This document shows, piece after piece, positions 1,808-38,517 of a DNA stretch of 47,155 bases. Position numbers and translations under genes: made by a program. Within the stretch, counting starts at the first letter, position 1. The number at the start of each line of letters is the position of its first letter. The stretch spans positions 1-47,155 of IMG/VR virus record IMGVR_UViG_3300036766_000934. One strand, 5' to 3'. Under the pieces are notes generated by a model. That model did no database searches. It saw only the letters and a program-made list of their open reading frames with translations, and was not told the origin of the DNA. The DNA comes from a virus.

Positions 1808-2490
1808 TGGAACGGCTGTATGAACACGCCAGAAATCGCGCCGCAACTCTTTCGGATGAGAAGGATGCCGAACTTTTGGCACACGATGCGCGAGCATTCG
1901 CCGAAGCCGCCCTCGCCGCCATCCGGCAACCGCCGAAGTTGGAGACGACGGCGGAGGAACGTGAACGCGTCGCTGCTTGGGCTGGCGATGTATCGTGGTT
2001 TCCGAATGCCGAGGTGCGCGCGCTTCTCCGCGACGTCGCCAAGCTCATCGCTCACGTCACCGGGCTTCTCTCCGCAACGAAGGAAGAAGCCCTAGCCCTG
2101 CTCGACGCCGAGGCAACACCCGTCAACTATCCGAAGCCGTTATTTTCATCGGAGGACAGGGACAGGGAGTCGCCGGGAACGGACTCCGCCTCTAACGCTG
2201 CCCCTCTACAATCTGGCCCGGCAACCTCCGGCCAAGAGCGCATCGTGCGCGCGGCTGTTATGGTCGGTGAAGCCGTTTACTCGGTGGCTCCGCCGGGTCG
2301 GCATGGTGCGGTCTTTCAGATCCTGCCGCCGACAAGCGACGATAAACTTGAGGATCAAGGCTTCTTGACAAGTACCGGTCGCTTCGTCACCCGCTCCGAG
2401 GCTCTGCGCATCGCAACCACGGCCGGTCAGATCATCCATCAATCGAGCGGGCCAAATCCAACCGAACTGTTCACGGAGGACATGTGGTGA
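1795..2490 (+). CDS. Phage protein with a C-terminal GRFVTRSEA-type module
   Basis: About 231 residues. The N-terminal 100 are helical and alanine/glutamate-rich; residues 110-150 are probably disordered; the C-terminal 80 contain HGAVFQILPP and GFLTSTGRFVTRSEALRIA, a small module I recall as recurrent in phage proteins of unknown function. The start is TTG 1795 (GAGGAG eight bases upstream) or ATG 1807, which overlaps the resolvase stop. It lies between the resolvase and the helicase, so a role in replication is only inferred from position. Confidence 0.65.
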   Translation: MDELMERLYEHARNRAATLSDEKDAELLAHDARAFAEAALAAIRQPPKLETTAEERERVAAWAGDVSWFPNAEVRALLRDVAKLIAHVTGLLSATKEEALALLDAEATPVNYPKPLFSSEDRDRESPGTDSASNAAPLQSGPATSGQERIVRAAVMVGEAVYSVAPPGRHGAVFQILPPTSDDKLEDQGFLTSTGRFVTRSEALRIATTAGQIIHQSSGPNPTELFTEDMW

Positions 2491-2509
2491 GCGACGACGG
2501 GCGGGTGAG

Positions 2510-3835
2510 TTGAACCTTTTTCCTTACCAAGTTGAGGGCGCCCGCTTCCTCGCCGAGAAGAAGCGTGCGTTGCTTGCCGACGACATGGGTTTGGGAAAGA
2601 CCGCCCAGGCGATCGCGGCGTGTGATTTAGTCGACGCCGGCATGTTTAACGTTCTGGTCGTATGCCCCGCTTCTGTTCGAGAAACTTGGCATCGAGAGTT
2701 TCGGCGTTTTGCCGGTGACAAATACCAAGCGGTCGTACTGTCCTATGACCGGATTGCGAAAGGCACATACAAGAGCAGTGTGCCAGTGCACATTGATGTC
2801 CTGATTCTGGATGAGGCCCACTACCTGAAGTCCCGCACCGCCAAGCGCACCAAAGCAATCTTTGGTCCCAAATGCGACGGCGTTGGGGGACTGGTTGAAC
2901 GGGCAAAGCACGTCTTTCTTCTCACCGGCACGCCGACGCCCAACAACCCATCGGAACTGTGGCCGATGCTGCGCGCCGTGATGCCGGACGCAATCGGGCC
3001 AGAGGGAATGAGCGCAAGAGGCGGCTGGCCAGGGACGGAAACAACTGTCTCTGTCGCCTGCGGCAAGCCCTTCTCCTACTGGCAGTACATCAACAGGTAC
3101 TGTTATCTCCGCGACAATGGTTTCGGCACCGAAATCGTTAAGGGTCGGAACCTCGACGAGCTCCGCGCGCGAATTGCGCCATACGTTCTGCGGCGCAAGA
3201 AGGCTGACGTGATGAAAGACCTTCCGCCGATTCGGTTCGACCAGATTTACCTTGAAGGCGATTTGACGCTGCCGGTCGAAGTGTTGGCGGAGGTTGAGAA
3301 CGTCGAGTGGGCGCTGGCGAACGGGGGCATCAAGGCACTGGCGAAGCTGGCGCCACACGTCGCGACGCTTCGGCGGTTGACGGGGTTGGCAAAGGTCAAG
3401 CCCGCGGTTGAATGGATCCGCGACTGGCTTGAGGCGGGCGGAAAGAAGCTGGTCGTGTTCGCGCACCACCGCAAGGTGATCGAAGGCTTGGCTGTTGGTT
3501 TGGCCCAAAACTTGTGCTGCGTGACCGGGGCAACGCCCGCGGATGAGCGACAGGACATCGTTAATCTGTTTCAATCGCGTTATGGACCTAGGATTTTCAT
3601 CGGTCAAATTCAGGCCGCCGGCGTCGGGATTACCCTTCACGCCGCGTCTGATGTATTATTTGTCGAATCTTCATGGGTGCCGGCGGACAACGAGCAGGCC
3701 GCCATGCGGATCCACCGCATTGGGCAAAAGAACGCCTGTCTGGTGCGTTTCGCAACGCTTGCTGGTTCGATTGACGAACGCATCCAGCGCGCGGTAATGC
3801 GTAAGACCGCCGACGTCGCCAAACTGTTCAACTGA
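2510..3835 (+). CDS. SNF2-family DEAH helicase/ATPase
   Basis: 441 residues with the superfamily 2 SWI2/SNF2 motif series: Walker A in DDMGLGKTAQA (K30), Walker B DEAH at 101-104, motif III LLTGTP at 138-142, and C-terminal motifs AGVGITLHAAS and QAAMRIHRIGQ. Such short SNF2 proteins are common in phage replication modules that also carry DUF2800, DUF2815 and a family A polymerase, as here, and act as DNA translocases. The apparent start is TTG at 2510, giving MNLFPYQVEG, which fits the family's usual N-terminus (PYQ.EG). The upstream gap is only 19 bases. Confidence 0.9.
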   Translation: MNLFPYQVEGARFLAEKKRALLADDMGLGKTAQAIAACDLVDAGMFNVLVVCPASVRETWHREFRRFAGDKYQAVVLSYDRIAKGTYKSSVPVHIDVLILDEAHYLKSRTAKRTKAIFGPKCDGVGGLVERAKHVFLLTGTPTPNNPSELWPMLRAVMPDAIGPEGMSARGGWPGTETTVSVACGKPFSYWQYINRYCYLRDNGFGTEIVKGRNLDELRARIAPYVLRRKKADVMKDLPPIRFDQIYLEGDLTLPVEVLAEVENVEWALANGGIKALAKLAPHVATLRRLTGLAKVKPAVEWIRDWLEAGGKKLVVFAHHRKVIEGLAVGLAQNLCCVTGATPADERQDIVNLFQSRYGPRIFIGQIQAAGVGITLHAASDVLFVESSWVPADNEQAAMRIHRIGQKNACLVRFATLAGSIDERIQRAVMRKTADVAKLFN

Positions 3836-3849
3836 GAGGACCAAGGAAA

Positions 3850-4647
3850 ATGAACCGAATCTCCATCGCGACATGTCTGTCTGCTTTCGTGCTTTTCGTG
3901 CTTGCCACGGCCGGCAACGCCTTCGCCGGGTGGTCGATCGACGACATGAACACGCAGATCGACCAGACCAATTTCATCGTCAACGCTGGCTGTTCGGGCA
4001 CTCTGATCAATCTGCGGAACCATTACATCCTGACGGCGAGCCACTGCGTTAACGTGCAATACGAGAGCTACGACCGCGAGACGGTCGCCGAGGACGGCAC
4101 CATCAAAACCGAGAAGGTTCGCCGGGTGAAACCTGGTGCGGTCAAGCAGGTGCTGTTCGACGCCTCGCTGGACGTTCGTGAGACCACCTACCGCACGAAG
4201 TTAATCGCCGTCGACACGACGCGTGACTTGGCGGTGGTGCAGACGGTTTCGCTTCTTCCCAACACGCGGGCGGCGAAATTGGAATGCGTCGACAACAAGG
4301 AACGCCGCGGCAGCGTCGTCTTCATCGTCGGCAATCCGCTCGGCCTCTACTCGAGCGTCGTTCAGGGCATCGTGTCGAGTACACAGCGCAGTTACGAGCT
4401 GCTGCAGTTCGGCACCGACGACGTGCAGACACAGCCGTTAATGCAGGTTTCCGGTGGTGTTGTCGGCGGCAACTCCGGCGGCGCCGTGTACAACCAGGAT
4501 GGCAATTTGATCGGCGTCTCGGTGCTGGCGCACAAGGTCAACGAAGTTCTTGGCTTCGCTGTCCCGCTCGACGTCATCAAGGCGTTTCTGAAAGACAAGA
4601 AGCTCGATGGTATTTTTTCTTACTGCGACCAAATAGAGAAGAGGTGA
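3850..4647 (+). CDS. Secreted trypsin-like (S1/HtrA-like) serine protease
   Basis: 265 residues. Residues 1-26 are a classical signal peptide (hydrophobic core LSAFVLFVLAT, cleavage likely after AGNAFA). The mature part shows a chymotrypsin-fold triad: H65 in LTASHC, D126 in TTRDLAVV and S209 in GGVVGGNSGGAV. No PDZ domain follows, so it is a bare protease domain, closest in look to DegP/HtrA peptidase cores. C48, C66, C146 and C258 could form disulphides in the periplasm. The ATG follows an AAGGA box. Its position inside a DNA replication operon is odd: target and timing are unknown. Phage-encoded exported proteases might act on host envelope proteins or in superinfection control, but this is inference. 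Confidence 0.85.
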   Translation: MNRISIATCLSAFVLFVLATAGNAFAGWSIDDMNTQIDQTNFIVNAGCSGTLINLRNHYILTASHCVNVQYESYDRETVAEDGTIKTEKVRRVKPGAVKQVLFDASLDVRETTYRTKLIAVDTTRDLAVVQTVSLLPNTRAAKLECVDNKERRGSVVFIVGNPLGLYSSVVQGIVSSTQRSYELLQFGTDDVQTQPLMQVSGGVVGGNSGGAVYNQDGNLIGVSVLAHKVNEVLGFAVPLDVIKAFLKDKKLDGIFSYCDQIEKR

Positions 4648-4650
4648 AAC

Positions 4651-5145
4651 GTGGAAATCAACATCAGCATAAATGCTCCGTGCGCCGAGGAAGTCCTTTG
4701 GCAAATGCGTAAGTTTCTTCAGGGAGAAAGTGGTAAACCCGCCGGTGTGTCCGCCGAGCAGTTTTCGTCAACGTCGACGAAATCATTCGAACCCGAAATC
4801 GTTCCTCCCGCCAAGAAGCGTGGCCGCGGGCCGGCGAAGGTCAAAGCCGAAGACGTCGTCGACGTCGCTCCCAATGGCGATCCAGTCCTGCACGACGCCG
4901 ATGTTGTTGTCGAGGCCGCTCGCGCGGCGACGCCGACCACCCTTCCCTCGTCCGAGGGGCCGAAGCACGATGCGACTCGCCAGGCGGCGATCGCCTACAA
5001 CGCCAAATTCGGCAACGACAAGCTGATCGAACTCCTGAAGAAGTTCAAGAACGCCGACGGCAAGCCGTGCTCGGGGCCGCGCGAGCTGTTCCGTGCCGGC
5101 CACGCAGACGCGTTCATTGCGCGGGTAGAGGAGGAGTTGGCGTGA
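4651..5145 (+). CDS. Hypothetical protein with a disordered centre
   Basis: 164 residues starting at GTG 4651, with GAGGTG just upstream. The first 30 residues are ordered (EINISINAPCAEEVLWQMRK), the middle (about 40-110) is Ala/Pro/Lys-rich and probably disordered with a basic patch KKRGRGPAKVK, and the last 50 (YNAKFGNDKLIELLKKF to the end) form a compact helical module. I recall similar tails in phage proteins next to DUF2800 nucleases but cannot name a family. Its stop overlaps the next GTG as GTGA, so the two are probably made together. Confidence 0.6.
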   Translation: MEINISINAPCAEEVLWQMRKFLQGESGKPAGVSAEQFSSTSTKSFEPEIVPPAKKRGRGPAKVKAEDVVDVAPNGDPVLHDADVVVEAARAATPTTLPSSEGPKHDATRQAAIAYNAKFGNDKLIELLKKFKNADGKPCSGPRELFRAGHADAFIARVEEELA

Positions 5146-6314
5146 CCGCCCGTCCTCACGCCAAACTGGCGCCTTCCGCGGCGCACCGGTGGATCAACTG
5201 CCCCGGCAGCATCCGCCTGTCGGAGGGGATCGAAGAGAAGTCTTCGGTCTTCGCCGACGAGGGTACAGCCGCGCACGAACTGGCGGAGTGGTGTCTTTCC
5301 TCGTTCAAAGACCCGGCCACTCGCTTCGGCGACTTCATCACTGTCAACGGATGTGATTTCGAAATCGACGAAGAGATGGTGGACTCAGTCCAACTCTACG
5401 TCGAGACGGTCAAGTCCCTGGTCGAACCCGGCGACGAAGTCGAATACGAAGCCAAACTGGATCTTCGCCACATCCCCGGCATGGGCTTCGGCACCGGCGA
5501 CGCCACCATCTTCAAGCCGAAGAAGCGCCGGCTGGTTATCGTCGACCTGAAGTACGGCAGGGGTGTTCCGGTCTTCGCCAAGGATAACCCGCAACTGAGG
5601 CTCTACGCGGTCGGCCTGGCGCAGCGATATCACAACCGCGGCATCGACTGGATCGAGTGCATTATCGTTCAACCTCGCTGCTCCCAGATCGGCGACATCG
5701 TGCCCGGTGTCAGAAAACCCGACCTCATCGAAGCCGTCGACCTCGTCGAGTTTCGCGTCGAAGTCGAACGCGCCGCCGCGGCAACGATGGCGCCGGACGC
5801 TCCCTTGAACCCTGGCGACTGGTGCCGGTTCTGTCCGGCCGCGCCGACGTGTCCCGCACTTAGGGAGAGGGTTCTTGCCGTGGCCGAGATGGAGTTTGGG
5901 GAACCACCGAAGGTAGATTCGCTGACCTTGGATAAGATGGCGTTCGTGTTGCGCGAGGCCGGCATCGTCAAGGACTGGCTGAAGCGGGTTGAGGAGCGGG
6001 CGCACCAGATGGCGCGCGACGGCAATCCGCCGACCGGCTTCAAGTTGGTGGCGTCGCGAGCGACGCGGAAGTGGAAGGACGAGGCCGCAACGGTGACGTA
6101 CCTTGGCGACATTCTCGATTTGACGGAAGACCAGATTTACGTCGAGCCGAAGGTGCGGTCCCCGGCCCAGATCGAGAGGATCATCGGCGTGAAACGCAAG
6201 GGCGAGATCATCGGATTGGTTGTGTCGAAGTCGAGCGGAACCATCCTGGTTTCGCAAGAGGATCCCCGGCCGCCGGTGAAGGTGGACGCAGAAGAGGAGT
6301 TTGAAAATGCCTGA
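5142..6314 (+). CDS. DUF2800 family PD-(D/E)XK nuclease with a likely Fe-S cluster
   Basis: 390 residues from GTG 5142. It opens with APSAAHRWINCPGS and ADEGTAAHELAEW, hallmarks of the DUF2800/Cas4-like nucleases. The nuclease core is visible as GTGDATIF (D120) and LVIVDLKYG (D135, K137). C20 together with C228, C231 and C237 in WCRFCPAAPTCPAL match the four-cysteine iron-sulphur arrangement of Cas4/AddB-type nucleases. It is expected to process DNA ends in phage recombination or replication. It precedes DUF2815 by one small gene, the typical pairing in phage replication modules. A longer frame to 5067 lies inside the previous gene and is rejected. Confidence 0.85.
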   Translation: MTARPHAKLAPSAAHRWINCPGSIRLSEGIEEKSSVFADEGTAAHELAEWCLSSFKDPATRFGDFITVNGCDFEIDEEMVDSVQLYVETVKSLVEPGDEVEYEAKLDLRHIPGMGFGTGDATIFKPKKRRLVIVDLKYGRGVPVFAKDNPQLRLYAVGLAQRYHNRGIDWIECIIVQPRCSQIGDIVPGVRKPDLIEAVDLVEFRVEVERAAAATMAPDAPLNPGDWCRFCPAAPTCPALRERVLAVAEMEFGEPPKVDSLTLDKMAFVLREAGIVKDWLKRVEERAHQMARDGNPPTGFKLVASRATRKWKDEAATVTYLGDILDLTEDQIYVEPKVRSPAQIERIIGVKRKGEIIGLVVSKSSGTILVSQEDPRPPVKVDAEEEFENA

Positions 6315-6516
6315 AGAACAACCCGCCGTCCCACCCATCGCCCTTCAGCTCGGCGCCGACCGTCAGAACGGTGTCGTTGTCCTGAAAATGGGTGGTTTCG
6401 TCCAGACCGTTAACTCCGCTACGGCGCGGGCGTACGCGATCGGTCTGATCCACGCCGCCGAGATTGCCGGGTTGCCGAAGATCGAGGAGGACGAAAAGAT
6501 TGGCTTGACCGAATAG
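6307..6516 (+). CDS. Small hypothetical protein between DUF2800 and DUF2815
   Basis: 69 residues from ATG 6307, preceded by GAGGAG and overlapping the DUF2800 stop. The middle reads QNGVVVLKMGGFVQTVNSATARAYAIGLIHAAEIAG, a beta hairpin followed by a helix, which I do not recognise as a named family. The stop at 6514-6516 abuts an exact copy of the dispersed motif, so this may be the last gene before a regulatory checkpoint in the operon. Confidence 0.6.
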   Translation: MPEEQPAVPPIALQLGADRQNGVVVLKMGGFVQTVNSATARAYAIGLIHAAEIAGLPKIEEDEKIGLTE

Positions 6517-6531
6517 TCTGATTGTGTGCTA
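6515..6531 (+). promoter_or_regulatory. Exact copy of GTCTRA-N3-TGTGC
   Basis: AGTCTGATTGTGTGCTA follows the stop of the small gene and precedes the DUF2815 gene by about 50 bases, in the only sizeable gap of the replication operon. A TTGACC at 6505-6510 could be a -35 with TAAACA (6530-6535) as a weak -10, 19 bases apart. It could therefore be an internal promoter, an operator, or both. Confidence 0.55.
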
Positions 6532-6540
6532 AACATGCTT

Positions 6541-6558
6541 CGCGTCTGACAAGACGCG
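6541..6558 (+). promoter_or_regulatory. Perfect hairpin in the DUF2815 leader
   Basis: CGCGTC-TGACAA-GACGCG forms a six-base-pair stem with a six-base loop, 25 bases before the GTG of the DUF2815 gene. No run of T follows, so an intrinsic terminator is unlikely; an RNA-level control element or protein site is possible. Confidence 0.4.
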
Positions 6559-6583
6559 AACCCAAGATGGAGCAAGAGATCCA

Positions 6584-7174
6584 GTGAAAGACAACGTCGC
6601 ATACATTCACGAGAAAACCGGGAACCTGATGACGCCGAAGTGCCGCATGGCGTGGTCGTCGCTTTTGGCCCCGTCCAGAATGAAGAATGACGACGGTGAA
6701 GCGAAGCACGACGTCACCATTCTCATTCCCAAGGACGCTGACATTACCGTGCTCAAGAAGGCGGCCACGGAGGCTGCCGAGGAGAAGTTTGGCGTCAAAG
6801 CGAAGACTTTAACCCTTCGTTCGCCATTCCGCAAAACCGAGGGGAAGGACAGTCTCGCCGATCTCGCCGAGGACTTCCCCTTCTACATCACGGCGCGCAG
6901 CAAGGACCGGCCCGGCGTGGTTGGCCCAAACGGCAAGGCGGTCGACGATCCCGAGCAAATTTATCCCGGCCGATGGGTGCGGGCATCGATCCAGGCATTC
7001 GGCTACGACACCAAGGGCAACAAAGGCGTCTCGTTCGGACTACAGAACGTGCAGTTGCTCGACCATGACGACCCGCTCGCCATCGGCGGCAGTCGCGTTT
7101 CCGCGGAGGCCGAATTCGACGCCGTCGAAGGCGCCGGCGACGAGACCAAGTCGTCCGACGCGCTGTTCGAGTAG
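6584..7174 (+). CDS. DUF2815 family, probable single-stranded DNA-binding protein
   Basis: 196 residues from GTG 6584. The sequence follows the DUF2815 pattern: a conserved start with TPKCRMAWSSLLAP, a charged centre with KHDVTILIPKDAD, then QIYPGRWVRASIQAFGYD and KGVSFGLQNVQLLDHDDPL, and an acidic tail ending DALFE. The acidic C-terminus is what single-strand binding proteins use to recruit partners. DUF2815 is usually found with DUF2800 and a family A polymerase, exactly as here, and is regarded as the module's single-strand binding protein. It has its own leader with a motif copy and a hairpin, suggesting separate regulation. Confidence 0.8.
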   Translation: MKDNVAYIHEKTGNLMTPKCRMAWSSLLAPSRMKNDDGEAKHDVTILIPKDADITVLKKAATEAAEEKFGVKAKTLTLRSPFRKTEGKDSLADLAEDFPFYITARSKDRPGVVGPNGKAVDDPEQIYPGRWVRASIQAFGYDTKGNKGVSFGLQNVQLLDHDDPLAIGGSRVSAEAEFDAVEGAGDETKSSDALFE

Positions 7175-7180
7175 CGTTCG

Positions 7181-7282
7181 ATGGATGACCTCGCCGCCGT
7201 TTTGATATTCATTCTCGTCCTCGCGGGGCTGACCGCACTTCCCACAGTCGGCTTGCTCTACTTGGTCGGCGCCCTTACTTGA
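7181..7282 (+). CDS. 33-residue single-span membrane peptide
   Basis: A very short frame, MDDLAAVLIFILVLAGLT and on to VGLLYLVGALT, almost entirely hydrophobic, so one long or two tightly packed membrane segments. It starts six bases after the DUF2815 stop and its stop overlaps the next TTG start as TTGA, which supports translation. No family is recognised. An inner-membrane peptide in an early operon could affect host membrane functions, but nothing more can be said. Confidence 0.5.
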   Translation: MDDLAAVLIFILVLAGLTALPTVGLLYLVGALT

Positions 7283-7500
7283 CTGATCGCCCGTTCGAGA
7301 AGGTGCGTTACCTCGATGACGTCGAGTTCCACCTTCTCGAACGGGCGCTGGTCAGGCTGGAAGATGAAAAACTGACCGACGACGAATACCAGTTCGCCGA
7401 CGACCTCGGTCGGCGGCTGATCGATTACGGCAGGCGCACGATCGTAACCGGCCGGCAGTGGCAGAAAATGGAACGCTTGAAGGAGAAATATCTTGACTGA
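7279..7500 (+). CDS. Small helical hypothetical protein
   Basis: 73 residues, TTG start overlapping the previous stop. Strongly charged and helical: VEFHLLERALVRLEDEKLTDDE, then FADDLGRRLIDYGRRTIVTGRQWQKMERLKEKYL. The tail resembles the 'RQ.E.L..L...Y' ends of small phage regulatory or anti-host proteins, but I cannot assign a family. It overlaps the GapR-like gene by eight bases. Confidence 0.55.
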   Translation: MTDRPFEKVRYLDDVEFHLLERALVRLEDEKLTDDEYQFADDLGRRLIDYGRRTIVTGRQWQKMERLKEKYLD

Positions 7501-7984: not shown

Positions 7985-8171
7985 CGAGTGCATCCAGCGC
8001 GCTCACGCCAGCGGTTACAAGGTCGGCCCGATGACCGAGCGGCCGGACGGCAAGTGGCGGGTCTACCTGCAGAAGGGATCCGAGAACATGGTTCACGCCG
8101 AGGATGCCGATCTTGAAGTGTCGTTTGAGAAGGCGCTGGCGCTGATCGAGCCGGTCGCGGTGTTCGATTGA
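7968..8171 (+). CDS. Hypothetical protein upstream of the C5 methyltransferase
   Basis: 67 residues if it starts at TTG 7968, 17 bases inside the previous gene; an in-frame ATG at residue 22 is the alternative. Content such as GKWRVYLQKGSENMVH and a helical end VSFEKALALIEPV looks like a folded small protein. Its stop overlaps the methyltransferase TTG as TTGA. No family recognised. Confidence 0.5.
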   Translation: MTPRFNECIQRAHASGYKVGPMTERPDGKWRVYLQKGSENMVHAEDADLEVSFEKALALIEPVAVFD

Positions 8172-9298
8172 ATTGGTACAACGAAAATGGCCCATACGCC
8201 GCCGCCTGGCTTCGCAACCTCATCGTCGCTGGACACATCGCGCCGGGCGACGTTGACGAGCGGAGCATCGTTGACGTGCGATCCGACGATCTCGCCGGAT
8301 ATGTCCAATGCCATTTCTTCGCCGGCATCGGCGGCTGGTCCCACGCCCTTCGTCTCGCCGGATGGCCCGACGACAGACCTGTTTGGACAGGCAGTTGTCC
8401 TTGCCAGCCGTTCTCGACGGCGGGCAAGCAGAAAGGCTTCGCCGACGAACGGCACCTCTGGCCTGAATTCAGGCGACTTATCGCCGAGCGGTTGCCTTCA
8501 GTCGTCTTTGGAGAACAGGTTGCGAGCGCGATTGACTGGCTCCGACTTGTGCGAAGTGATCTGGAAGCCTTGGGCTACGCCGTGGGGGCAATGCCTATCG
8601 AAGCCGCGAGCGCGGGTGCGGACCATCTCAGAGACCGGTTCTGGTTTGTGGCCGACCGCAAGGGCGAACAAGTGGGGACCGCCGGACAGTCACGGCAACG
8701 TGGCGATGTGGGCGACGATCCGGACGAGCGACGGGGAGAAGGGCGGCCCGAACATGGCGTTCGGAGCTGGCGGGACGCCTCTACCTGCACAAGCCGCGCA
8801 ATCCCGGATGGCCGCGACTTGGCCAAGTCCCGGCTCGCAAATCAGCGGGGACACGACGGAGGTCCACGAAGCGAGGCAGTTGCGAGTTGTGGCGAAACAC
8901 GGGCGGCGAATGGGGACGCCTCTGACGGTCCACGCCCAAGTAGCGGCGGCGACATGGCCAACCCCGAAAGCACAACGGCCCGAACAGGAAACGACCTTTT
9001 CGCGCGGCAACCCGACGCTTGGTCTGGCCGCAACATGGGGGACGCCGCGTGTGGGGAACGGCGGGAACGGGAATGCGGATCGGGCGGCGAACGGCCGCTC
9101 ACGGCCAGAGGACCAAGCGCGGATTATCACTGGGTCGCCGGTGCTGACGGAAAGGCGCGGCGCGTTAAACCCGGAATTCGTTTGTTGGCTCATGATGTTC
9201 CCGCCCGAGTGGCTAAGTTGCGCGCCTTTGGCAACGCCATCGTCCCGCAGGTTGCCGCCGAGTTCATCGTCGCCTATCTGGATGGATTGAATGTCTGA
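8168..9298 (+). CDS. C5-cytosine DNA methyltransferase
   Basis: 376 residues from TTG 8168. C5 methyltransferase motifs are clear: motif I HFFAGIGGWSHAL (F51-G56), motif IV GSCPCQPFS with catalytic C79, a GEQV (115-118) in place of the usual ENV, motif VIII-like RDRFWFVA, and motif X-like RAFGNAIVPQVAAEF. It methylates cytosine in host or phage DNA, a usual phage defence against restriction. Residues 160-330, where the target-recognition domain should be, are unusually low in hydrophobics and rich in Arg/Gly/Asp. The same bases also code for a second open frame, 8187-9290. The motifs make this frame certainly real. Confidence 0.9.
   Translation: MNWYNENGPYAAAWLRNLIVAGHIAPGDVDERSIVDVRSDDLAGYVQCHFFAGIGGWSHALRLAGWPDDRPVWTGSCPCQPFSTAGKQKGFADERHLWPEFRRLIAERLPSVVFGEQVASAIDWLRLVRSDLEALGYAVGAMPIEAASAGADHLRDRFWFVADRKGEQVGTAGQSRQRGDVGDDPDERRGEGRPEHGVRSWRDASTCTSRAIPDGRDLAKSRLANQRGHDGGPRSEAVASCGETRAANGDASDGPRPSSGGDMANPESTTARTGNDLFARQPDAWSGRNMGDAACGERRERECGSGGERPLTARGPSADYHWVAGADGKARRVKPGIRLLAHDVPARVAKLRAFGNAIVPQVAAEFIVAYLDGLNV
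8187..9290 (+). CDS. Candidate overprinted protein in the +1 frame of the C5 methyltransferase
   Basis: A 367-residue frame, ATG 8187, uninterrupted across almost the whole methyltransferase gene in another frame of the same strand. It has its own organisation: a Ser/Thr/Arg-rich start, an ordered part with SGCLQSSLENRLRARL and VIWKPWATPWGQCLSK, repeated Trp-Pro elements (LWPTARANKWG, TWPSPG, TWPTPK, TWGTPR) and a C-terminal LNPEFVCWLMMFPPEWLSC. From memory the WPTP repeats and LNP..WLMGYPPEW ending recur in phage and prophage proteins annotated as hypothetical or methylase-associated. No convincing ribosome site precedes the ATG. It could instead be a by-product of GC-rich codon bias. Confidence 0.4.
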   Translation: MAHTPPPGFATSSSLDTSRRATLTSGASLTCDPTISPDMSNAISSPASAAGPTPFVSPDGPTTDLFGQAVVLASRSRRRASRKASPTNGTSGLNSGDLSPSGCLQSSLENRLRARLTGSDLCEVIWKPWATPWGQCLSKPRARVRTISETGSGLWPTARANKWGPPDSHGNVAMWATIRTSDGEKGGPNMAFGAGGTPLPAQAAQSRMAATWPSPGSQISGDTTEVHEARQLRVVAKHGRRMGTPLTVHAQVAAATWPTPKAQRPEQETTFSRGNPTLGLAATWGTPRVGNGGNGNADRAANGRSRPEDQARIITGSPVLTERRGALNPEFVCWLMMFPPEWLSCAPLATPSSRRLPPSSSSPIWMD

Positions 9299-11349: not shown

Positions 11350-11483
11350 TCACCCTTGCCCCGAAAGACAACAAGTTTCACGTCGGCAATGGCGATGACG
11401 GAAAGCATTATTGGTTGACGCCGCCGGACCTGTACGCCGATCTTGACGCAGAGTTTCACTTCGTTTTGGAGCCTCCAAAGTGA
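11346..11483 (+). pseudogene. N-terminal remnant of a phage Dam-type adenine methyltransferase
   Basis: 45 codons from TTG 11346, ending at TGA 11481-11483 and overlapping the polymerase GTG. The peptide contains HYWLTPPDLYADLDAEFHF, which is the characteristic N-terminal motif of phage Dam proteins (PF05869 type), where TPP and the following 'ALDAEF.FDLDPCP' lead into the SAM-binding core. The rest of that protein is absent: the frame stops shortly after FHFVLEPPK. It is therefore probably a decayed gene start, or a short peptide still translated for coupling to the polymerase. A different methyltransferase lies after the polymerase. Confidence 0.55.
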
Positions 11484-13483
11484 CCACCCTCATGATCGAC
11501 TTCGAATCCCGCTCTACCGTCGACCTCAGCAAGACCGGCGTCTATCCCTACGCGGAGAATCCAGACACCGATGTCTGGTGCGCCGCGTGGGCGATCGACA
11601 ACGAAGCGGTCCAGCTCTGGATCCCCGGCGAGCCATGCCCGTCACGCCTTGTTGAACATGTCGCCGAGTGTGGCTTGCTCGCCGCCTGGAACGCTAATTT
11701 CGAAATCGCCCTGTGGAAGCACATCCTGCACCCGCGCTACGGCTGGCCGTTGCCGGACCTCTCTCAGTGGCGTTGTAGCATGGTCATGGCTTACGCTATG
11801 TCCCTCCCCGGTGCGCTTGAGAACGCCGCCGGCGCAGTCGGCCTCGACATCGGCAAGGATATGACCGGCCGTCGGCTGATGCTCGCGATGAGCCAGCCTC
11901 GGCGCCCGCGCAAGGACGAGCCGGATGGCCTTTACTGGTGGGATGACGAGGACCGAAGGTCACGGCTCTACGCCTACTGCAAGAACGACGTGGAAGTGGA
12001 GCGCGCCATCCGGTCCCAGCTGGTGGCGTTGCGGTCGTCCGAGCAAGCGCTTTGGCATCTCGACCAGAAGATCAATGGCCGTGGCGTCTACGTCGACAAG
12101 GTTCTCTGCCAGCGGGCCAAGGCGGTCGTGGCGCACGTCACCAAGCGGCTCAACGCCGATATGGCACGCGTCACCGATTACGCCGTCACCGCCTGCAGCA
12201 ACATCAACAACCTGAAAACGTTCGTGCGCTCCAAGGGCGTTGACACGGAAGCCTTGGACAAGGAGGCTCTTGCCGAACTGCTGAAGGGTCCGTTGCCGAC
12301 CGGCGTTCGTGAGGCGTTGGAACTTCGCCAGGAGGCCGGCAAAGCGTCGGTCGCCAAGATCGAAGCTTTACTTAACGGCACGTCGGCCGACGGCCGCGCC
12401 CGCGGGCTATTGCAGTTCCACGCCGCTAACACTGGTAGATGGGCCGGGCGTCGCTTTCAGCCGCAGAACATTCGTCGGCCGAGCGAAGAGACCGATGTCG
12501 ACGCGGCAATCGAGATCATTCTGTCGCAGCCGCCGGCGGAGGCGGCGGTGCTGCTGGAATGTCTCTATGGACCGCCGCTGACGATCGTGAGTGACTGTCT
12601 GCGAGGGATGATTAAGGCGTCGCCGGGGAGAAAGCTGGTGTCGGCCGACTTCTCCAATATCGAGGGGCGAGTACTGGCGTGGCTGGCCGGCGAGCGCGGC
12701 AAGCTCGACGCCTTCGAGGCGTACGACCGCGGCGAAGGACCGGACCTCTACAAGGTCATGGCCGGGTCGATCCTCAATAAGCAGCCGAACGACATCACCA
12801 AAGACGAGCGCCAGGCATACGGAAAGGTGCCGGAACTAGCGTGCGGGTATCAAGGCGGCGTCGGCGCCTTTCAGACTATGGCGCACACCTATGGAGTTAA
12901 GATCGAGGATGTGCGGGCCGAGCTGATCGTTCAGCGCTGGCGAGCAGCCAACCCGAACATCAAGCAATACTGGCGCGACCTTGAGGACGCTTGTTTCGGA
13001 GCCGTAACGAATCCCGGTTCGCTGCAAATCGTCCGTAACGTCAAGTTCAAGGTCGTCGGCTCCTTCCTGTGGATGCAACTGCCATCCGGTCGCGCCATCT
13101 GCTTCCCATACCCGGCGATCGTCTGGAAGGAGATGCCGTGGCTCAACGAAGATACCGGCATGCCAGCGCGACGCCAGGTGGTGTCGTTCAAGGGCGTTAA
13201 TTCGTACAGCCGCAAATGGGAGACACAATATCTCTACGGCGGGAAAGAAGCTGACTATGCCACGCAGGGCACTGCGCGCGATCTTCTGGCGGCGGCAATA
13301 GTGCGTGTCGAGGCGCACGGCTACCCTGTAATTCTTACGATTCACGATGACGCTTTGGCCGAGCCTAAGAAGGACTTCGGCAGCGCCGAGCAGTTCGAAG
13401 AACTCATGATTGAACTGCCGCCGTGGGCTGCCGGCCTGCCGGTGGCGGCCGAGGCGTGGGAAGGTGAGAGATACAGGAAATGA
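11480..13483 (+). CDS. polA: Family A DNA polymerase with 3'-5' exonuclease domain
   Basis: 667 residues from GTG 11480. The exonuclease domain shows Exo I MIDFES (D7, E9), Exo II-like WNANFEIALWK (N73, E75) and Exo III YCKNDVEVE (Y166, D170). The polymerase domain shows motif A VSADFSNIEGR (D390), motif B RQAYGKVPELACGYQGG (R444, K449, Y457) and motif C LTIHDDALAE (H622, D623, D624). Motif C has HDD where HDE is usual. No 5' nuclease domain is present. This is the replicative polymerase of DUF2800/DUF2815-type modules, presumably primed by the Prim-Pol protein. Confidence 0.93.
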   Translation: MTTLMIDFESRSTVDLSKTGVYPYAENPDTDVWCAAWAIDNEAVQLWIPGEPCPSRLVEHVAECGLLAAWNANFEIALWKHILHPRYGWPLPDLSQWRCSMVMAYAMSLPGALENAAGAVGLDIGKDMTGRRLMLAMSQPRRPRKDEPDGLYWWDDEDRRSRLYAYCKNDVEVERAIRSQLVALRSSEQALWHLDQKINGRGVYVDKVLCQRAKAVVAHVTKRLNADMARVTDYAVTACSNINNLKTFVRSKGVDTEALDKEALAELLKGPLPTGVREALELRQEAGKASVAKIEALLNGTSADGRARGLLQFHAANTGRWAGRRFQPQNIRRPSEETDVDAAIEIILSQPPAEAAVLLECLYGPPLTIVSDCLRGMIKASPGRKLVSADFSNIEGRVLAWLAGERGKLDAFEAYDRGEGPDLYKVMAGSILNKQPNDITKDERQAYGKVPELACGYQGGVGAFQTMAHTYGVKIEDVRAELIVQRWRAANPNIKQYWRDLEDACFGAVTNPGSLQIVRNVKFKVVGSFLWMQLPSGRAICFPYPAIVWKEMPWLNEDTGMPARRQVVSFKGVNSYSRKWETQYLYGGKEADYATQGTARDLLAAAIVRVEAHGYPVILTIHDDALAEPKKDFGSAEQFEELMIELPPWAAGLPVAAEAWEGERYRK

Positions 13484-16597: not shown

Positions 16598-16795
16598 CTA
16601 TGTCCAGCAGCCGAGGTTCTGGCCGGTGCGATTGTGGACCCGGATCTGGCGTTTCGTGAGACCGGTGTCGTTGCGGCCGGAGTAGGTGATTGGCACCCAG
16701 GAGCGACAAACGGTCTTACTTGCAGTCGCGGTCAAACCGGTCGAGACACACCCGGCGAGCAGAACCGCCAGGGCGAGGGGGATCAGGAGCAACAT
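16598..16795 (-). CDS. o-spanin (Rz1-like outer membrane lipoprotein)
   Basis: 65 residues from ATG 16795. It begins MLLLIPLALAVLLAGC, a lipoprotein signal with lipobox LAGC (lipidated C16), followed by a short polar tail ending NRTGQNLGCWT. Small size, lipobox, and partial out-of-frame overlap with the upstream inner-membrane gene match the outer spanin of two-component spanins. It is unusually poor in proline for an Rz1 protein. A longer in-frame start to 16942 lies within the i-spanin gene and is less likely. It is the last gene before the terminator. Confidence 0.7.
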   Translation of the reverse strand: MLLLIPLALAVLLAGCVSTGLTATASKTVCRSWVPITYSGRNDTGLTKRQIRVHNRTGQNLGCWT

Positions 16796-17075
16796 CGTGT
16801 GGGACCGCCAATTCCGCCTCGTCTCTCGCCTTAGCTCCTCTAACCACCATAGCTTTCTCCTCGGCGTTCCACCGCGCTTGAATGTATTGCTTCCCATCGT
16901 GAACTCCCGTTGTGTAAAGGACGAATCCGACGACGGCGGCAACGATCAGGGTCAGTGCTGTTTTCTTGAACGTGGTCAGGAACAGGAGCGCCAGCGCCGC
17001 CGCCAGAATGGTCGCACCTATTCCATATTTCCAGACAAAAGGCCAGACAAAAGAGACAATTCCGACAATGCTCAC
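16716..17075 (-). CDS. i-spanin-like / holin-like inner membrane protein
   Basis: 119 residues from GTG 17075, overlapping the endolysin stop (GTGA). Two membrane segments (about 15-34 and 38-57, GIGATILAAALALLFL and ALTLIVAAVVGFVLY) are followed by a charged periplasmic helix with ARWNAEEKAMVVRGAKARDE and a C-terminus ending RRVCLDRFDRDCK. The tail resembles inner spanin/Rz-like proteins of alphaproteobacterial phages, while two transmembrane segments are more holin-like; it may serve as either. Its last 80 bases overlap the o-spanin gene. Confidence 0.6.
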   Translation of the reverse strand: MSIVGIVSFVWPFVWKYGIGATILAAALALLFLTTFKKTALTLIVAAVVGFVLYTTGVHDGKQYIQARWNAEEKAMVVRGAKARDEAELAVPHDVAPDPPRPGGSARRVCLDRFDRDCK

Positions 17076-17836
17076 GCGGCTTTTCTCGCCTTGTTGATGA
17101 ACAGGTACAGGACCGCTAGGACGCCGACGACAACGGCGAAAGCAAGCGCGTAGGCCAACGGGCCGCTGACGCCGCCGAAGCCCATAACCGCGGTTCCGCC
17201 GGCGGTGCCATAGCCGACGATGGCTTCCGGCGTGGTGTAGGGGTTGGGCTTCGCCTCGGCCGCGATCGGCGCGTCCGGTTTGATCTCTTCCACGGGTGGT
17301 TTTGCGGTGTTGAGCGGAATCGCCGCGACCGCTCGCGCGTAGTACGCCTTGCGATCGGCGAGGCCGTTCTGTCCGCCGTTGACGATGCGGGTGATCTGGA
17401 CGATGTCGTCGCGGTCGGCCCACGCGTTCAACCCACGCGCCTTCCAGTATTCGCACGCGATTCTGACGGATACCGTCGGGCTGGATGCGAGTTTTGGGTT
17501 GGCGACGAGATCGACGCCAATCTTCTTGCCGTAGGCGGCGTAGTTGGCCCGTCCGGTCAGCATGAAAATGCCGCGGCCCTTGTATTTGACGCCGTCGCCG
17601 GGGTTGACGTTGCCGAGGTCTTTCCGGCCCTCGTACGCCTTGCCGGAAGCGTACTCCGCGAGGACGGTAAAGCCATCGGTCTCATGCGCCGCCTGCGTAA
17701 GGAAGTGACGGAGCCGGGGGGCCGAGACGATGCCGTACTGCGGCAGATAGAGGTTGAACGGATCGATCAGGTCCGCCAAGAGCCACGCGGCTCCTTTCGG
17801 GGCAATCTTCTTCAGTTGCGCGAGTGTGACTGTCAT
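17072..17836 (-). CDS. GH19-type endolysin with a C-terminal membrane segment
   Basis: 254 residues from ATG 17836, overlapping the upstream stop as ATGA. The catalytic domain is a glycoside hydrolase family 19 lysozyme: RLRHFLTQAAHETDGF with catalytic E52, and GVKYKGRGIFMLTGRANYAAYG. After a Pro/Ala linker (about 185-215) the C-terminus has a long hydrophobic helix (LAYALAFAVVVGVLAVLYLF) and a basic end KARKAA, so the enzyme is probably membrane-anchored. It degrades peptidoglycan at lysis. No signal peptide is seen at the N-terminus. Confidence 0.88.
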   Translation of the reverse strand: MTVTLAQLKKIAPKGAAWLLADLIDPFNLYLPQYGIVSAPRLRHFLTQAAHETDGFTVLAEYASGKAYEGRKDLGNVNPGDGVKYKGRGIFMLTGRANYAAYGKKIGVDLVANPKLASSPTVSVRIACEYWKARGLNAWADRDDIVQITRIVNGGQNGLADRKAYYARAVAAIPLNTAKPPVEEIKPDAPIAAEAKPNPYTTPEAIVGYGTAGGTAVMGFGGVSGPLAYALAFAVVVGVLAVLYLFINKARKAA

Positions 17837-20196
17837 TGCTTTTCCTGTTTCTGCTGCGCCTCGTCCTGGCCGTACTGGATGGCGGCCAGGATCTCGTTGA
17901 GCTTCGCGTTCCACGCCGGCCCTTGAACCTCTTTGACCGGCCGAAGAAGCAGGTGCTCCGCGAGATCGGGGTCAAACCACATCCGGTCCATGACACGGGC
18001 GATCTTGTGCTCCATCGTCATGTTTTTTAGCCCCGGCGTCAGAGCCAGAGCTTGTTTTAGCCGGAACATCATCATGCCGGAATGAACGGCGCCGTATTTG
18101 AACATCAGTGCCGTGCCGAGAGCTTTGCCTGCTGTCCCGCCGAGAAGAGAGGCGTTTTCAACCGTGGGGGATCCGATGCTGGCTGTGTTTTCAAGATTGG
18201 TAAAAGGCTTCAGCGCGGCGTGAGCCTGGCGAAGGACGCTCATCTTTTCCGGCCCCATTACTGCGGCGAGGGCGTCTTCGTGCTGCTTGAAAACCTTGTC
18301 CAGTTGCGCGAAAGACACCGGTCCTTCCGGTCCAGCGGTTGATGCTCTGGTTGTCGCCGTCACTTTGTTCATCAAAACGTCGGCGACAGCTGCCCGCCAG
18401 CCACGTTGTGCGACGGGATCCCTGAAGAGCATCGCGTTGATATGCTGAAGTTCTTTTTCGCTGCCGTAAGCGTCTCCGGTGAGTATTCTTTTCGCGACGT
18501 TGGCGGGTTCGCCATTGGTGGCTTCCAACAGCTTTTGCGCGGTCGTGTTTTCTCTGACCACGTCCATGGGAACACTGCCTTCCTTGTATTTTTCAAGGTA
18601 CTTGCCAAACTCCGGCGCGACTCGGTTGATCTCGGCGTCAAGGGCGTTGAGAACGGTGACGAGTTCTTTTTTCGCGTAGCGACCGGTTGGTGTTTCGGTA
18701 CGGCCCGCAAGAACATCCCGAATCGCTTTACGGGTTTCGTAGAGACCGGAAACCGAGGTATCGAGTTCTTTGGTTCCCGCTTTGTTGAGCATGGCTCGCG
18801 CCTGGGTAAGCGCGCTGACGACCGCCGGACGCTTGTCTGCGGCCAGCATGGAATCAATCAGATCGGCCACCGGTTGCGGATTAACGACCGCGCCGGACGC
18901 TTCCGCCTGTTTCAGCAGCGGCAGCGCCGTGGCGTCGCGTTCGGCGGCAAGGCGAACACGTTCCGCCTCGATCGCGGGGGCGACAGTGCTCTGATCCGCC
19001 CCAGGATCCTTCAGGCTGGTTACTTTCTCCTGTGCGAAGCCTTTTACGGCCTGATCGCGCTCCATGAACGGTACGGGATCGCGCAGCCGTGCTCCGCGCT
19101 CGCTCGCCACCAGACCGATGTCGTTGGAACCGAGTCCAGACGTGGGTGGGGGCGCTCCCGCGGCTCTTGCTCCCGCAACCTGTTCGCTCAGAGTTGACGC
19201 TGCCGCTTGCGGGTCGGTAGCCCCCGCCTGCACACGACGGGCGGCTTCTTCCATCACACGGCGGCTGGTCGGCAAAAGCGTGTTGGGGTCGGGTCTGACG
19301 CCTCGCTCGGGCAACAAGCCCATAAACGAATCCAACGCCTGTTTCGGCGCGCGAACCATGCCGGCCCCTGTCATGCCTGCGGCGCCTCCGCCCATTGTCG
19401 CGGCGGTAGCGATAAGCGCGTCGGCGAGCGGATTTCCTGTCTTGTTTTTCTCCGCCACGTCCAACGCGGCGCCGGCACCCGCGCCCCCACCAACATCGCC
19501 AATAACTGTTTTTCCAGGGCTTTGCAGGTATGGCAGCACAAACTTGTCGTAGAATTTGCTTGAACCACCGGCCAGCAATTCAGGGCCACGCTTGAGCGCC
19601 AGCTCGGCGAGGCCGCTTCCGATGGAACCCATTTCCGTGCCGAACTGGTCCATCTTGTAAACGGTTTGCTCGCGGGGGGTCATGCCGCTTTGCGGAATGC
19701 GGTTGAATCCGAAAGCGTCGGCAGCACCTCCAACTGTATTGGAGATGGCGTCTCCCATCCCGACCGGCCAGCGGGCATTGGGCGGGACATCGGGGACACG
19801 GAAAGGAATTCCTTGTCCGCCGGCAGCTTTCAGCCCCCAATCCGCCGCGGCGATCGGGGCGTTTAGTAACTTGGGTCCGACGTCCAGCGGAAAGTTGAGC
19901 AGCGTGGACGCAAGGTCTGGCAAAAAGCCCACCGCGTTCGCCAAACCGCTGCCGGCGCCTTGAGCGGAAATCTTCAAGGCACGGACAAGAGGGCTGTCCA
20001 GCTGCGTTTGCTCGACGGGTGCGTGCTTGAACGGGCCGTTGGGGTCGCTGCTCGCCGGCGCAAAGCTATCGGATGGCGGCGGCTTGTTGCCGAGGTCAGG
20101 CGCGGTGCCCTGGTCGATGATGTGGCGAATTTCATCGTCCGTGGCGTCGTCGGGAACGATGATGTGACGACCTTCAAAGTTGATTACACGGGCCAT
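17833..20196 (-). CDS. Large internal virion / DNA ejection protein candidate
   Basis: 787 residues; the ATG at 20196 gives MARVINFEGRHIIVPDDATDDEIRHII, a motif common at the start of phage structural proteins. The 150-380 region is Gly/Ala-rich and amphipathic (GAGSGLANAVGFLPDLAST, GGGAGAGAALDVAE), able to insert into membranes; the rest is long helical and coiled-coil sequence. It occupies the last structural position before the lysis genes, as the large ejection proteins (gp15/gp16) do in T7-like phages. No lysozyme motif is visible. A longer frame to 20505 has no supporting signal. Exact function is inferred. Confidence 0.65.
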   Translation of the reverse strand: MARVINFEGRHIIVPDDATDDEIRHIIDQGTAPDLGNKPPPSDSFAPASSDPNGPFKHAPVEQTQLDSPLVRALKISAQGAGSGLANAVGFLPDLASTLLNFPLDVGPKLLNAPIAAADWGLKAAGGQGIPFRVPDVPPNARWPVGMGDAISNTVGGAADAFGFNRIPQSGMTPREQTVYKMDQFGTEMGSIGSGLAELALKRGPELLAGGSSKFYDKFVLPYLQSPGKTVIGDVGGGAGAGAALDVAEKNKTGNPLADALIATAATMGGGAAGMTGAGMVRAPKQALDSFMGLLPERGVRPDPNTLLPTSRRVMEEAARRVQAGATDPQAAASTLSEQVAGARAAGAPPPTSGLGSNDIGLVASERGARLRDPVPFMERDQAVKGFAQEKVTSLKDPGADQSTVAPAIEAERVRLAAERDATALPLLKQAEASGAVVNPQPVADLIDSMLAADKRPAVVSALTQARAMLNKAGTKELDTSVSGLYETRKAIRDVLAGRTETPTGRYAKKELVTVLNALDAEINRVAPEFGKYLEKYKEGSVPMDVVRENTTAQKLLEATNGEPANVAKRILTGDAYGSEKELQHINAMLFRDPVAQRGWRAAVADVLMNKVTATTRASTAGPEGPVSFAQLDKVFKQHEDALAAVMGPEKMSVLRQAHAALKPFTNLENTASIGSPTVENASLLGGTAGKALGTALMFKYGAVHSGMMMFRLKQALALTPGLKNMTMEHKIARVMDRMWFDPDLAEHLLLRPVKEVQGPAWNAKLNEILAAIQYGQDEAQQKQEKQ

Positions 20197-37114: not shown

Positions 37115-37297
37115 TTAATCGCCCGGCATGACAATGGGTTCTTGAAGCCCGTCCATAAATCGCTTTGTAACTTCCCAAACAAATTCCCTGTCCATCAGAC
37201 CAGCGTCAACGGACCTGACGTGCCGGGCCAAGATGGACGCCAGACGAACTCGCTGCGCCAGACGCAACTCTTGAACGGCTGTTCTCAGTTCGGTCAT
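37115..37297 (-). CDS. Small protein next to the terminase
   Basis: 60 residues from ATG 37297, entirely helical (LRTAVQELRLAQRVRLASILARH, EFVWEVTKRFMDGLQEP). Its stop overlaps the terminase start and its start overlaps the metallophosphoesterase stop, so it is part of the packaging operon. It could be a small accessory of the terminase; no family recognised. Confidence 0.55.
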   Translation of the reverse strand: MTELRTAVQELRLAQRVRLASILARHVRSVDAGLMDREFVWEVTKRFMDGLQEPIVMPGD

Positions 37298-38517
37298 GCC
37301 GCCTCGTCCAGAATGGCGGTTCGCACCCGACCGATTTCGCCGAAGTCCCGGTGGTAGGTGATCGCCTGCAACGACCGGCCGGACAGATAACCCTTACCGA
37401 AATGCCATGCATCAAGGGGGATCGGCGCCTGATGCGTCTCACAGATAACGCCCTCGTCCTCCGTCGCCGTCTTAGCGGAGTGGTGCAGATGGAATCCGTG
37501 GCAATAGCGGAACTTCGTCGCGCCCCAATCCTCGGCACGACGGTGCGCCATGATCGACGGCATCTTCCCGATCTTGACGGTATGGCCGTGCGTGGCGCCC
37601 AACAGCACTTTGCCAAAGCGGAACCAAAAGAACAGGCTCGGATCCACGTCAACAGTGACGCGCGGCTCGTCGCGGAACCAGGCCAACAGAAAATAACCAA
37701 TCGCCACCGACGTGTCCTCGTCGTGATTGCCGGGCAGGATGCGCACGGTGACATGCCGGTGCCGGGCGAGCGCGGAATATATCGTGCGAACCGCCATGCG
37801 GGTGATCGTCTGCAGCACCTTCGGATAGCGCCCGTCGACGTCCTGCGGCGTACCGGCCGTCGTTTCGTTGAGCTGGCTGTCGCTATGCATCAGATCGCCG
37901 CCGCCAAGTACGATCGCTTCCGCCGACGCCGGCGAGCGGACGATGACGTCCCTAATGCCGTTACCGATCACTCGTTCGGCGATTTTCAAGTCCCAATTCT
38001 GCTCAACCTCCGACGCCCAGGCAAACATTCCAACGTGCCAGTCGTTCACCGGAATCAGCGTCAGAAGATCGGTGTCGATCGCCTTCGGAGCTTTGATCGA
38101 CTTCGCCGGTTTGACGTCGACGAACGCGTTCTTGATCCACTCAACCAAAGTGGTCGGGTCGAACACGCCCTCTTTCGTCTTGACCCACTTAACGATCTCG
38201 CGCCCGTCGGGATCGAGAAGCGCCGACACGCCCCTGATGACGTGACCGTTCGGCACGACAAACTCCCCGCCGCGGTCCTGTCTTTGCTGAATGCTCCGGC
38301 CAGCGGGGCCGTCCGTCACCTGCGAGATGCGGAACCCCGGCATCGCCGGCGCCACATCGAGCAGCATCCCGCGTTCCGCCGCCCGACGAAGACGGTTTGC
38401 GAGTGTCCCTCGCGGGATTCCTAACTGTCCGGCCGCAAGGGTCTGGTTGCCGCCTGCCTCCAAATACGCCTTGGCGGCTTTCGCCGCGAGGTCGTCAGAC
38501 AGTGGGAGACTTGACAC
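37294..38517 (-). CDS. Helix-turn-helix / calcineurin-like metallophosphoesterase fusion
   Basis: 407 residues from GTG 38517. Residues 10-50 are a helix-turn-helix of terminase small subunit or Fis/resolvase type (AAKAYLEAGGNQTLAAGQLG, PRGTLANRLRRA). From about residue 150 comes a metallophosphoesterase: DWH (D159, H161), GGGDLMHSD (D208, H211), LPGNHDE (N264-D266) and THGH (H310, H312), all metal ligands of the calcineurin-like fold. Related fusions precede terL in podophages and are sometimes called phosphoesterase or oxidoreductase. A DNA-binding nuclease or phosphatase role in packaging is an inference. Confidence 0.8.
   Translation of the reverse strand: MSSLPLSDDLAAKAAKAYLEAGGNQTLAAGQLGIPRGTLANRLRRAAERGMLLDVAPAMPGFRISQVTDGPAGRSIQQRQDRGGEFVVPNGHVIRGVSALLDPDGREIVKWVKTKEGVFDPTTLVEWIKNAFVDVKPAKSIKAPKAIDTDLLTLIPVNDWHVGMFAWASEVEQNWDLKIAERVIGNGIRDVIVRSPASAEAIVLGGGDLMHSDSQLNETTAGTPQDVDGRYPKVLQTITRMAVRTIYSALARHRHVTVRILPGNHDEDTSVAIGYFLLAWFRDEPRVTVDVDPSLFFWFRFGKVLLGATHGHTVKIGKMPSIMAHRRAEDWGATKFRYCHGFHLHHSAKTATEDEGVICETHQAPIPLDAWHFGKGYLSGRSLQAITYHRDFGEIGRVRTAILDEAA

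Follow-up and report, generated by a model that had tools for sequence, protein, structure and literature searches.

The closest structural counterparts of the phage protein described here are the serine proteases HtrA, DegP, DegQ and DegS, which share with it the fold, the catalytic triad and export to the periplasm. Members of its own family have been annotated in phages, as PHROG 9683 'protease' and as the 'putative serine protease' of Sulfitobacter phages pCB2047-A/C and NYA-2014a. The Sulfitobacter proteins contain a signal peptide and the triad, and their identity to our protein is 26–27% over 84–90% (tblastn) or 31–34% in alignments; their genes are located four genes after the endolysin gene and before a phrog_704 exonuclease gene. 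In the literature searched, no paper on the function of this phrog_9683-like exported-protease family was found. Remote matches confined to the peptidase domain (best E 2.5e-12) were obtained with anti-phage trypsin-like peptidases, namely RT-Protease_XI, LmuA, Avs1b and LypA/LypC of CARD-NLR-like systems. The first three occur as parts of larger multidomain proteins (profile lengths 425–1924), and a peptidase within a multidomain layout is also described for LypA/LypC (PMC13236601).

In this work we analyzed a protease gene from a 47,155-base virus record of IMG/VR, the whole of which is called the window below. Its product differs from HtrA/DegP/DegQ/DegS in having no PDZ domain, in a cysteine pair beside the catalytic histidine and in the N-terminal motif W....MN..IDQTNF. 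Unlike the anti-phage peptidases it is a predicted stand-alone exported enzyme, and only its peptidase stretch was matched in PADLOC; unlike the Sulfitobacter phage copies, it is encoded in an early operon. As judged from sequences and a structural model, the family is a known protease fold in a phage-borne, exported, PDZ-less form.

The protease gene and its operon

An earlier note on this DNA described an exported trypsin-like protease gene inside a DNA replication operon, between genes for an SNF2 helicase and a DUF2800 nuclease. The ORF was present as described, with an ATG start and AAGGA just upstream of it. The gene is tightly packed in the replication operon, with 14 bases after the SNF2 gene and 3 bases before the next gene; its third-position GC is 0.79, similar to the 0.65–0.79 of the neighbours. 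The features of the window are as follows (evidence in parentheses):

2510..3835, plus strand: SNF2-type helicase, upstream operon neighbour of the protease (Pfam, PHROG)
3850..4647, plus strand: predicted exported PDZ-less HtrA-type serine protease, S1 fold, 265 aa (sequence, Pfam, PHROG, model)
3850..3930, plus strand: predicted signal peptide, residues 1–27, ending AFA before G or AFAG before W (sequence and family comparison rather than a dedicated predictor)
3931..3933, plus strand: Trp28, first or second residue of the predicted mature chain (kept in 40/46 members with this column)
4042..4044, plus strand: catalytic His65 (LTASHC), flanked by Cys48/Cys66 (sequence and family alignment)
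4225..4227, plus strand: catalytic Asp126 (RDLAV) (sequence and family alignment)
4474..4476, plus strand: catalytic Ser209 (GGNSGGA) (sequence and family alignment)
4651..5145, plus strand: 164-aa ORF directly downstream of the protease, without family match (Pfam, PHROG)
5142..6314, plus strand: DUF2800 / RecB-like nuclease; gene-caller start, longer ORF version 5067–6314 (Pfam, PHROG)
6584..7174, plus strand: Enc34-type ssDNA-binding protein (Pfam, PHROG)
11480..13483, plus strand: DNA polymerase A (Pfam, PHROG)
16598..17914, minus strand: lysis cassette of the window phage, with endolysin at 17072–17914 and Rz-like spanins within 16716–17456 and 16598–16942

Thus, the SNF2 gene does lie upstream, and the DUF2800 gene does not directly adjoin the protease gene, the 164-aa ORF being located between them. 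A similar-looking ORF was recognized by eye and position at the same place in relatives; tblastn returned none.

The window phage is temperate, with integrase and repressor-like genes at 14.8–16.4 kb and with replication genes on the plus strand at 1–14 kb. No protease gene was found in its lysis cassette. Operon packing and strand suggest that the protease is expressed early, and a search for a promoter of its own (a weak test) revealed no promoter-like sites in 2000–7500.

Fold, catalytic residues and export

Residues 48–223 of the window protein matched Pfam Trypsin_2 above its curated cut-off (E=3.3e-21), and matches were also obtained with Trypsin (1.1e-10) and with PHROG 9683 'protease' (1.8e-22). 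The complete triad was found exactly at the numbers given earlier, H65/D126/S209. An AlphaFold2 monomer model built with 16 family rows had a pLDDT of 83.1 and a pTM of 0.79. Among the matches listed by Foldseek for this model were 50 PDB chains, all of them HtrA-type protease domains, with DegS-deltaPDZ as the top match among those listed (E 3.9e-14). VIA-align gave a Z of 25.4 to DegQ, Rv0983 and DegP (for DegQ, rmsd 2.3 over 186 aligned residues). The His-Asp-Ser order within a two-barrel fold places the protein, by sequence and model, in the chymotrypsin fold (Trypsin_2 / clan PA, family S1). It is well supported by the model that the fold is that of an HtrA/DegP protease domain.

The protein stops 11 residues past the aligned protease domain, which ends at residue 254 of 265, so there is no PDZ domain, as the earlier note had maintained; nor was PDZ among the Pfam hits. 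The window protein therefore has the HtrA protease domain and not the C-terminal PDZ domain of HtrA proteins. Its scores with NCBIfam HtrA-type models were 32–81 bits, compared with cut-offs of 250–800 (81 bits against 416 for the HtrA/DegP-type model TIGR02037). For want of a PDZ regulator the enzyme is probably constitutively active, and perhaps forms an HtrA-like trimer.

In trypsin proper, which is specific for Arg/Lys, the S1 pocket has an Asp at its base, six positions ahead of the catalytic Ser. In the family alignment this column contains Gly in the window protein and Asp in one of 48 members. Since Gly rather than Asp is located six residues before Ser209, a trypsin-type preference for Arg/Lys is not expected, and 'trypsin-like' is accurate for the fold only. 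The window protease would probably prefer a small or aliphatic P1 residue and not cleave after Arg/Lys.

To judge how widespread such proteins are, 50,697 named phages were searched with the window protease by tblastn. Only nine records were found at E<=1e-3 (six Sulfitobacter, one Microcystis and two half-length Staphylococcus matches), consistent with the rarity that had been supposed. A scan of IMG/VR with the single protein gave nothing; the family was reached through alignments alone, built stepwise. Counting the window, L002 and L004, it comprises 48 loci from IMG/VR and two named phage groups, which form 37 clusters at 90% identity. Remote matches with 24–31% identity (L204, L205, L206; L045–L048 and their repeats L069–L072) were left out of the 48. 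Two weak signals, of 18 bits in L155 and of 27.7 bits in record G039, were likewise excluded from the family.

Loss of triad residues in relatives and a cytoplasmic product had been named as the observations that would speak against the proposal. In rows with the respective column, the triad was invariant (H 47/47, D 48/48, S 48/48), as were Cys48 (46/46) and Cys66 (47/47). The N-terminal signal varies in its letters across the family. Nevertheless, when a crude rule of a hydrophobic stretch plus AxA was applied to 35 cluster representatives (two truncated ones excluded), 32 passed. One of those that passed, L193, did so through an over-long start with no hydrophobic stretch. The AxA part was failed by L040 and L186, whose N-termini are hydrophobic, and by L188, where the end was set by default. 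The window protein has a hydrophobic N-terminus ending in AFA before GW. Because both catalysis and export appear to be conserved, an active exported enzyme is favoured. Export of the window protease to the periplasm by a Sec-type signal is well supported by sequence comparison; together with the mature N-terminal Trp, C48/C66, the triad and the absence of any further domain, it matches the phrog_9683-like exported proteases. Cys48 and Cys66 may form a disulphide beside the active-site His.

A scan of genome contigs with a single pattern gave eight partial matches, none of them over the N-terminal part, in Oscillospiraceae, Acidimicrobiales/Acidimicrobiia, another actinobacterium, Planctomycetota and Patescibacteria. 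As this pattern matches only 9 of the 48 known members, we make no claim that bacteria lack the family. Weak, HtrA-like matches only were found in plasmids. A polA search of the protease carriers, run without a positive control, was empty.

Genomic position in relatives and across the family

We then compared 114 loci of related replication modules (L005–L038, L081–L160), picked by SNF2 and DUF2800 and containing some contigs twice; matches to both were present in 61 of them. No clear family protease was found in any of the 114, the L155 match being the only signal, and Trypsin_2 (PF13365) was found in none of 15 whole records of relatives. The family profile matched two of 20 records, namely G024, put in as a known carrier, and the weak match in G039. 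The protease is also absent from the slot after SNF2 in the named phages RHph_N65 and Mae-Yong1326-1. In these two and in L005–L009 this slot contains one or a few small ORFs followed by the nuclease, with a different ORF occupying it in L008. As the contents differ and the protease is missing in relatives, we regard this as a variable slot in which the protease is carried as cargo. Its position in the window phage is thus incidental, an accident of insertion, and the protease does not belong to the replication machinery. The significance attached earlier to this position was not borne out, the more so as the family appears commoner beside lysis genes.

The context was scored on one representative of each of the 36 other clusters by PHROG and similarity (L004 by annotation), for chosen neighbours only:

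Endolysin within five genes, 15/36: L166, L171, L173, L175, L183, L184, L188, L189, L190, L192, L193, L194, L002/L201, L203, L004
Holin-like gene four genes away, 1/36: L170
Replication or nucleotide genes, 8/36: L163, L180, L185, L187, L191, L196, L198, L202
Head genes, between portal and scaffold, 2/36: L162, L164
Unplaced, 10/36: L161, L040, L172, L178, L181, L182, L186, L195, L199, L200

In L196 one neighbour also has a weak resemblance to endolysins (1.2e-4); among the unplaced clusters, L195 and L200 are near a terminase gene and L186 is near a weak one. The counts indicate that the family is found beside lysis genes more often than in replication/nucleotide modules; as the seed proteins for finding lysis genes came partly from the same neighbours, there is no clean background rate, and the share of lysis placements is indicative only. 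The window itself does not follow this arrangement, met in 15–16 of the 36 other clusters: its lysis genes are at 16.6–17.9 kb on the other strand. A tree was built from 35 rows, excluding two truncated ones, and 27 of these rows had a context label; it required at least nine context changes, so the protease gene has often moved between modules. In this tree the window falls together with L040, L161 and L162, which all lack a lysis placement; several branches are long, making the deep joins unsure.

A natural comparison is provided by G024 (IMGVR_UViG_3300037440_000441, 48,162 bases), a relative of the window phage according to ruvC (63% identity), DUF2800 (45% by tblastn, 50% in a second comparison), the ssDNA-binding protein (38%), polA (49%), tail (46%) and integrase (42%). 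Here a family protease gene is located directly before the endolysin gene; its product is about 33% identical to the window protease and belongs to another clade. Searching with the protease revealed nothing in the early region of G024, and the family profile found only the lysis-cassette copy in the whole record. Sequence comparison thus indicates that related phages gained such proteases separately and placed them in different modules. This suggests that the exported protease itself has been selected for, and not one moment of expression.

These placements bear on several alternative functions. The copies of L162 and L164 are located where a head-maturation (prohead) protease might be encoded. 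Such a role is highly improbable: both members also keep signal peptides, the fold is HtrA-like, scaffold genes are present and the placement differs in most carriers. A prohead protease would be cytoplasmic and encoded among head genes; the window protein has a signal peptide and is encoded in a replication operon.

Processing of a co-exported phage protein, for example of a membrane-held (SAR) endolysin that would be released or activated, is suggested by L173, L175 and L194, where the protease gene is directly upstream of genes for SAR-like endolysins (N-terminal hydrophobic stretch, by eye). However, the adjoining endolysins are of different types (phrog_7, 315, 1224, 465), which argues against a specific substrate, and the window endolysin gene is about 13 kb from the protease gene on the other strand. 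We regard this role as improbable.

Superinfection exclusion or receptor removal, in which the exported enzyme, made early or from a prophage, would trim an outer membrane receptor or periplasmic partner and so bar other phages, seems unlikely, if less so than processing. It is consistent with the conserved export signal, with integrases and repressors in the window and several carriers, and with early placement in 9 of 37 clusters. However, the gene is in a lysis cassette in 15–16 of the 36 other clusters, which would probably express it late, at a time at which exclusion would be of little use. In addition, a study of a Sulfitobacter pair describes each lysogen as resistant to its own phage type only and killed by the other, and the lysogen of the protease-carrying phage A as showing no broad exclusion (PMC7305329).

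Finally, the integrases of carriers and the accessory, itinerant distribution of the gene would fit a lysogenic-conversion or nutrient gene, the secreted protease benefiting the lysogen or supplying amino acids. Against this, the window gene is packed in an early operon, from which no expression would be expected in the prophage, and the promoter search, weak as it is, revealed no separate site. This explanation appears as improbable as processing. The roles suggested in the earlier note, namely removal of receptors, exclusion of superinfecting phages and activation of a further exported protein, are all possible, and none is singled out by the results.

Several observations on neighbouring genes can be added. 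In 5 of the 36 other clusters the protease gene is followed, at a distance of one or two genes, by a gene for a phrog_704-like 'DNA repair exonuclease' or, in L190, for a phrog_221 metallo-phosphoesterase (L002:8612–9763; L166:9177–10238; L004:6715–7944; L203:8883–10106; L190:8789–9742); the phrog_704 gene of the window is at 37294–38517 (minus strand), 33 kb from the protease. A phrog_298 (RecB/Cas4-like) exonuclease gene precedes the protease by one to two genes in three clusters (L180:1934–2614, L185:4121–4783, L196:573–1274), and in the window a RecB-like nuclease gene follows it. The terminase large subunit gene is one to three genes from the protease in L173, L175, L194, L171, L195 and L200. 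L041:7613–7849, on the same contig as L051/L163, contains a short GGNSGGALYN copy downstream of an intact protease, amid shuffled pieces of neighbouring genes, and is either an assembly chimera or a recombination scar.

Putative role of the exported protease

The explanation that we tentatively prefer, giving it slightly less than an even chance, is that of an itinerant, exported, PDZ-less HtrA-type accessory protease that cleaves host periplasmic or envelope proteins and thereby helps infection or lysis. According to gene packing and strand, the window protease would be made together with the replication proteins from the early operon. It would then be exported by the Sec pathway and lose its signal peptide, a step well supported by sequence and family conservation, leaving an aromatic residue at the new N-terminus. 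In the periplasm the Cys48–Cys66 disulphide would form, and the enzyme, probably active without regulation and perhaps trimeric, would cut host proteins there or in the envelope. The envelope might thus be weakened or remodelled, or periplasmic factors hindering the phage removed, favouring infection and release; it is the recurrent adjacency to lysis genes in relatives that suggests an enzyme acting on the outer layers of the host. Counting against this explanation, the window and 8 of the 36 other clusters have the gene in replication/nucleotide modules and two have it among head genes, so neither the timing nor the lysis link is uniform, and the nearest clade of the window (L040, L161, L162) has no lysis placement. 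Many carriers contain integrases, and a lysogen function is also possible.

A broader proposal, which we consider doubtful, is that of a phage-specific class of periplasmic proteases, repeatedly acquired by unrelated phages in early or lysis modules. By taking apart host envelope proteins, they would add a third, proteolytic arm to holin/endolysin and spanin in lysis or takeover. The usual three-layer lysis scheme, with outer-membrane disruption by spanins and disruptins, has been described (PMC9239132), and the protease could be an auxiliary to it. Over-activated DegP is reported to inhibit growth (PMC7529758); for the window protease this is an analogy only. In the literature searched, no secreted phage protease is described in outer-membrane disruption, nor is the recurrent lysis-gene adjacency noted, which is of more interest than the early-operon location. 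The family offers a defined candidate, a single gene whose catalysis can be tested through S209A. Cultured hosts exist for known carriers (Sulfitobacter sp. CB2047, Microcystis), so that phage periplasmic proteolysis is accessible to direct study.

Two other assignments were considered and rejected. A general role as spanin substitute was discarded for the window and L055, both of which have Rz-like genes. The 2700-fold induced pepG of the Sulfitobacter study is SUAG_00073 (PMC7305329); the protease is SUAG_00063.

It can also be mentioned that the window contains two ORFs of 376 and 367 aa, at 8168–9298 and 8187–9290 (both plus strand), which overlap almost totally in different frames. By eye, the first has a cytosine-methyltransferase-like start; the second resembles a phage protein (LNPEFVCWLMMFPPEWL). 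Dual coding or a frameshifted pair is possible.
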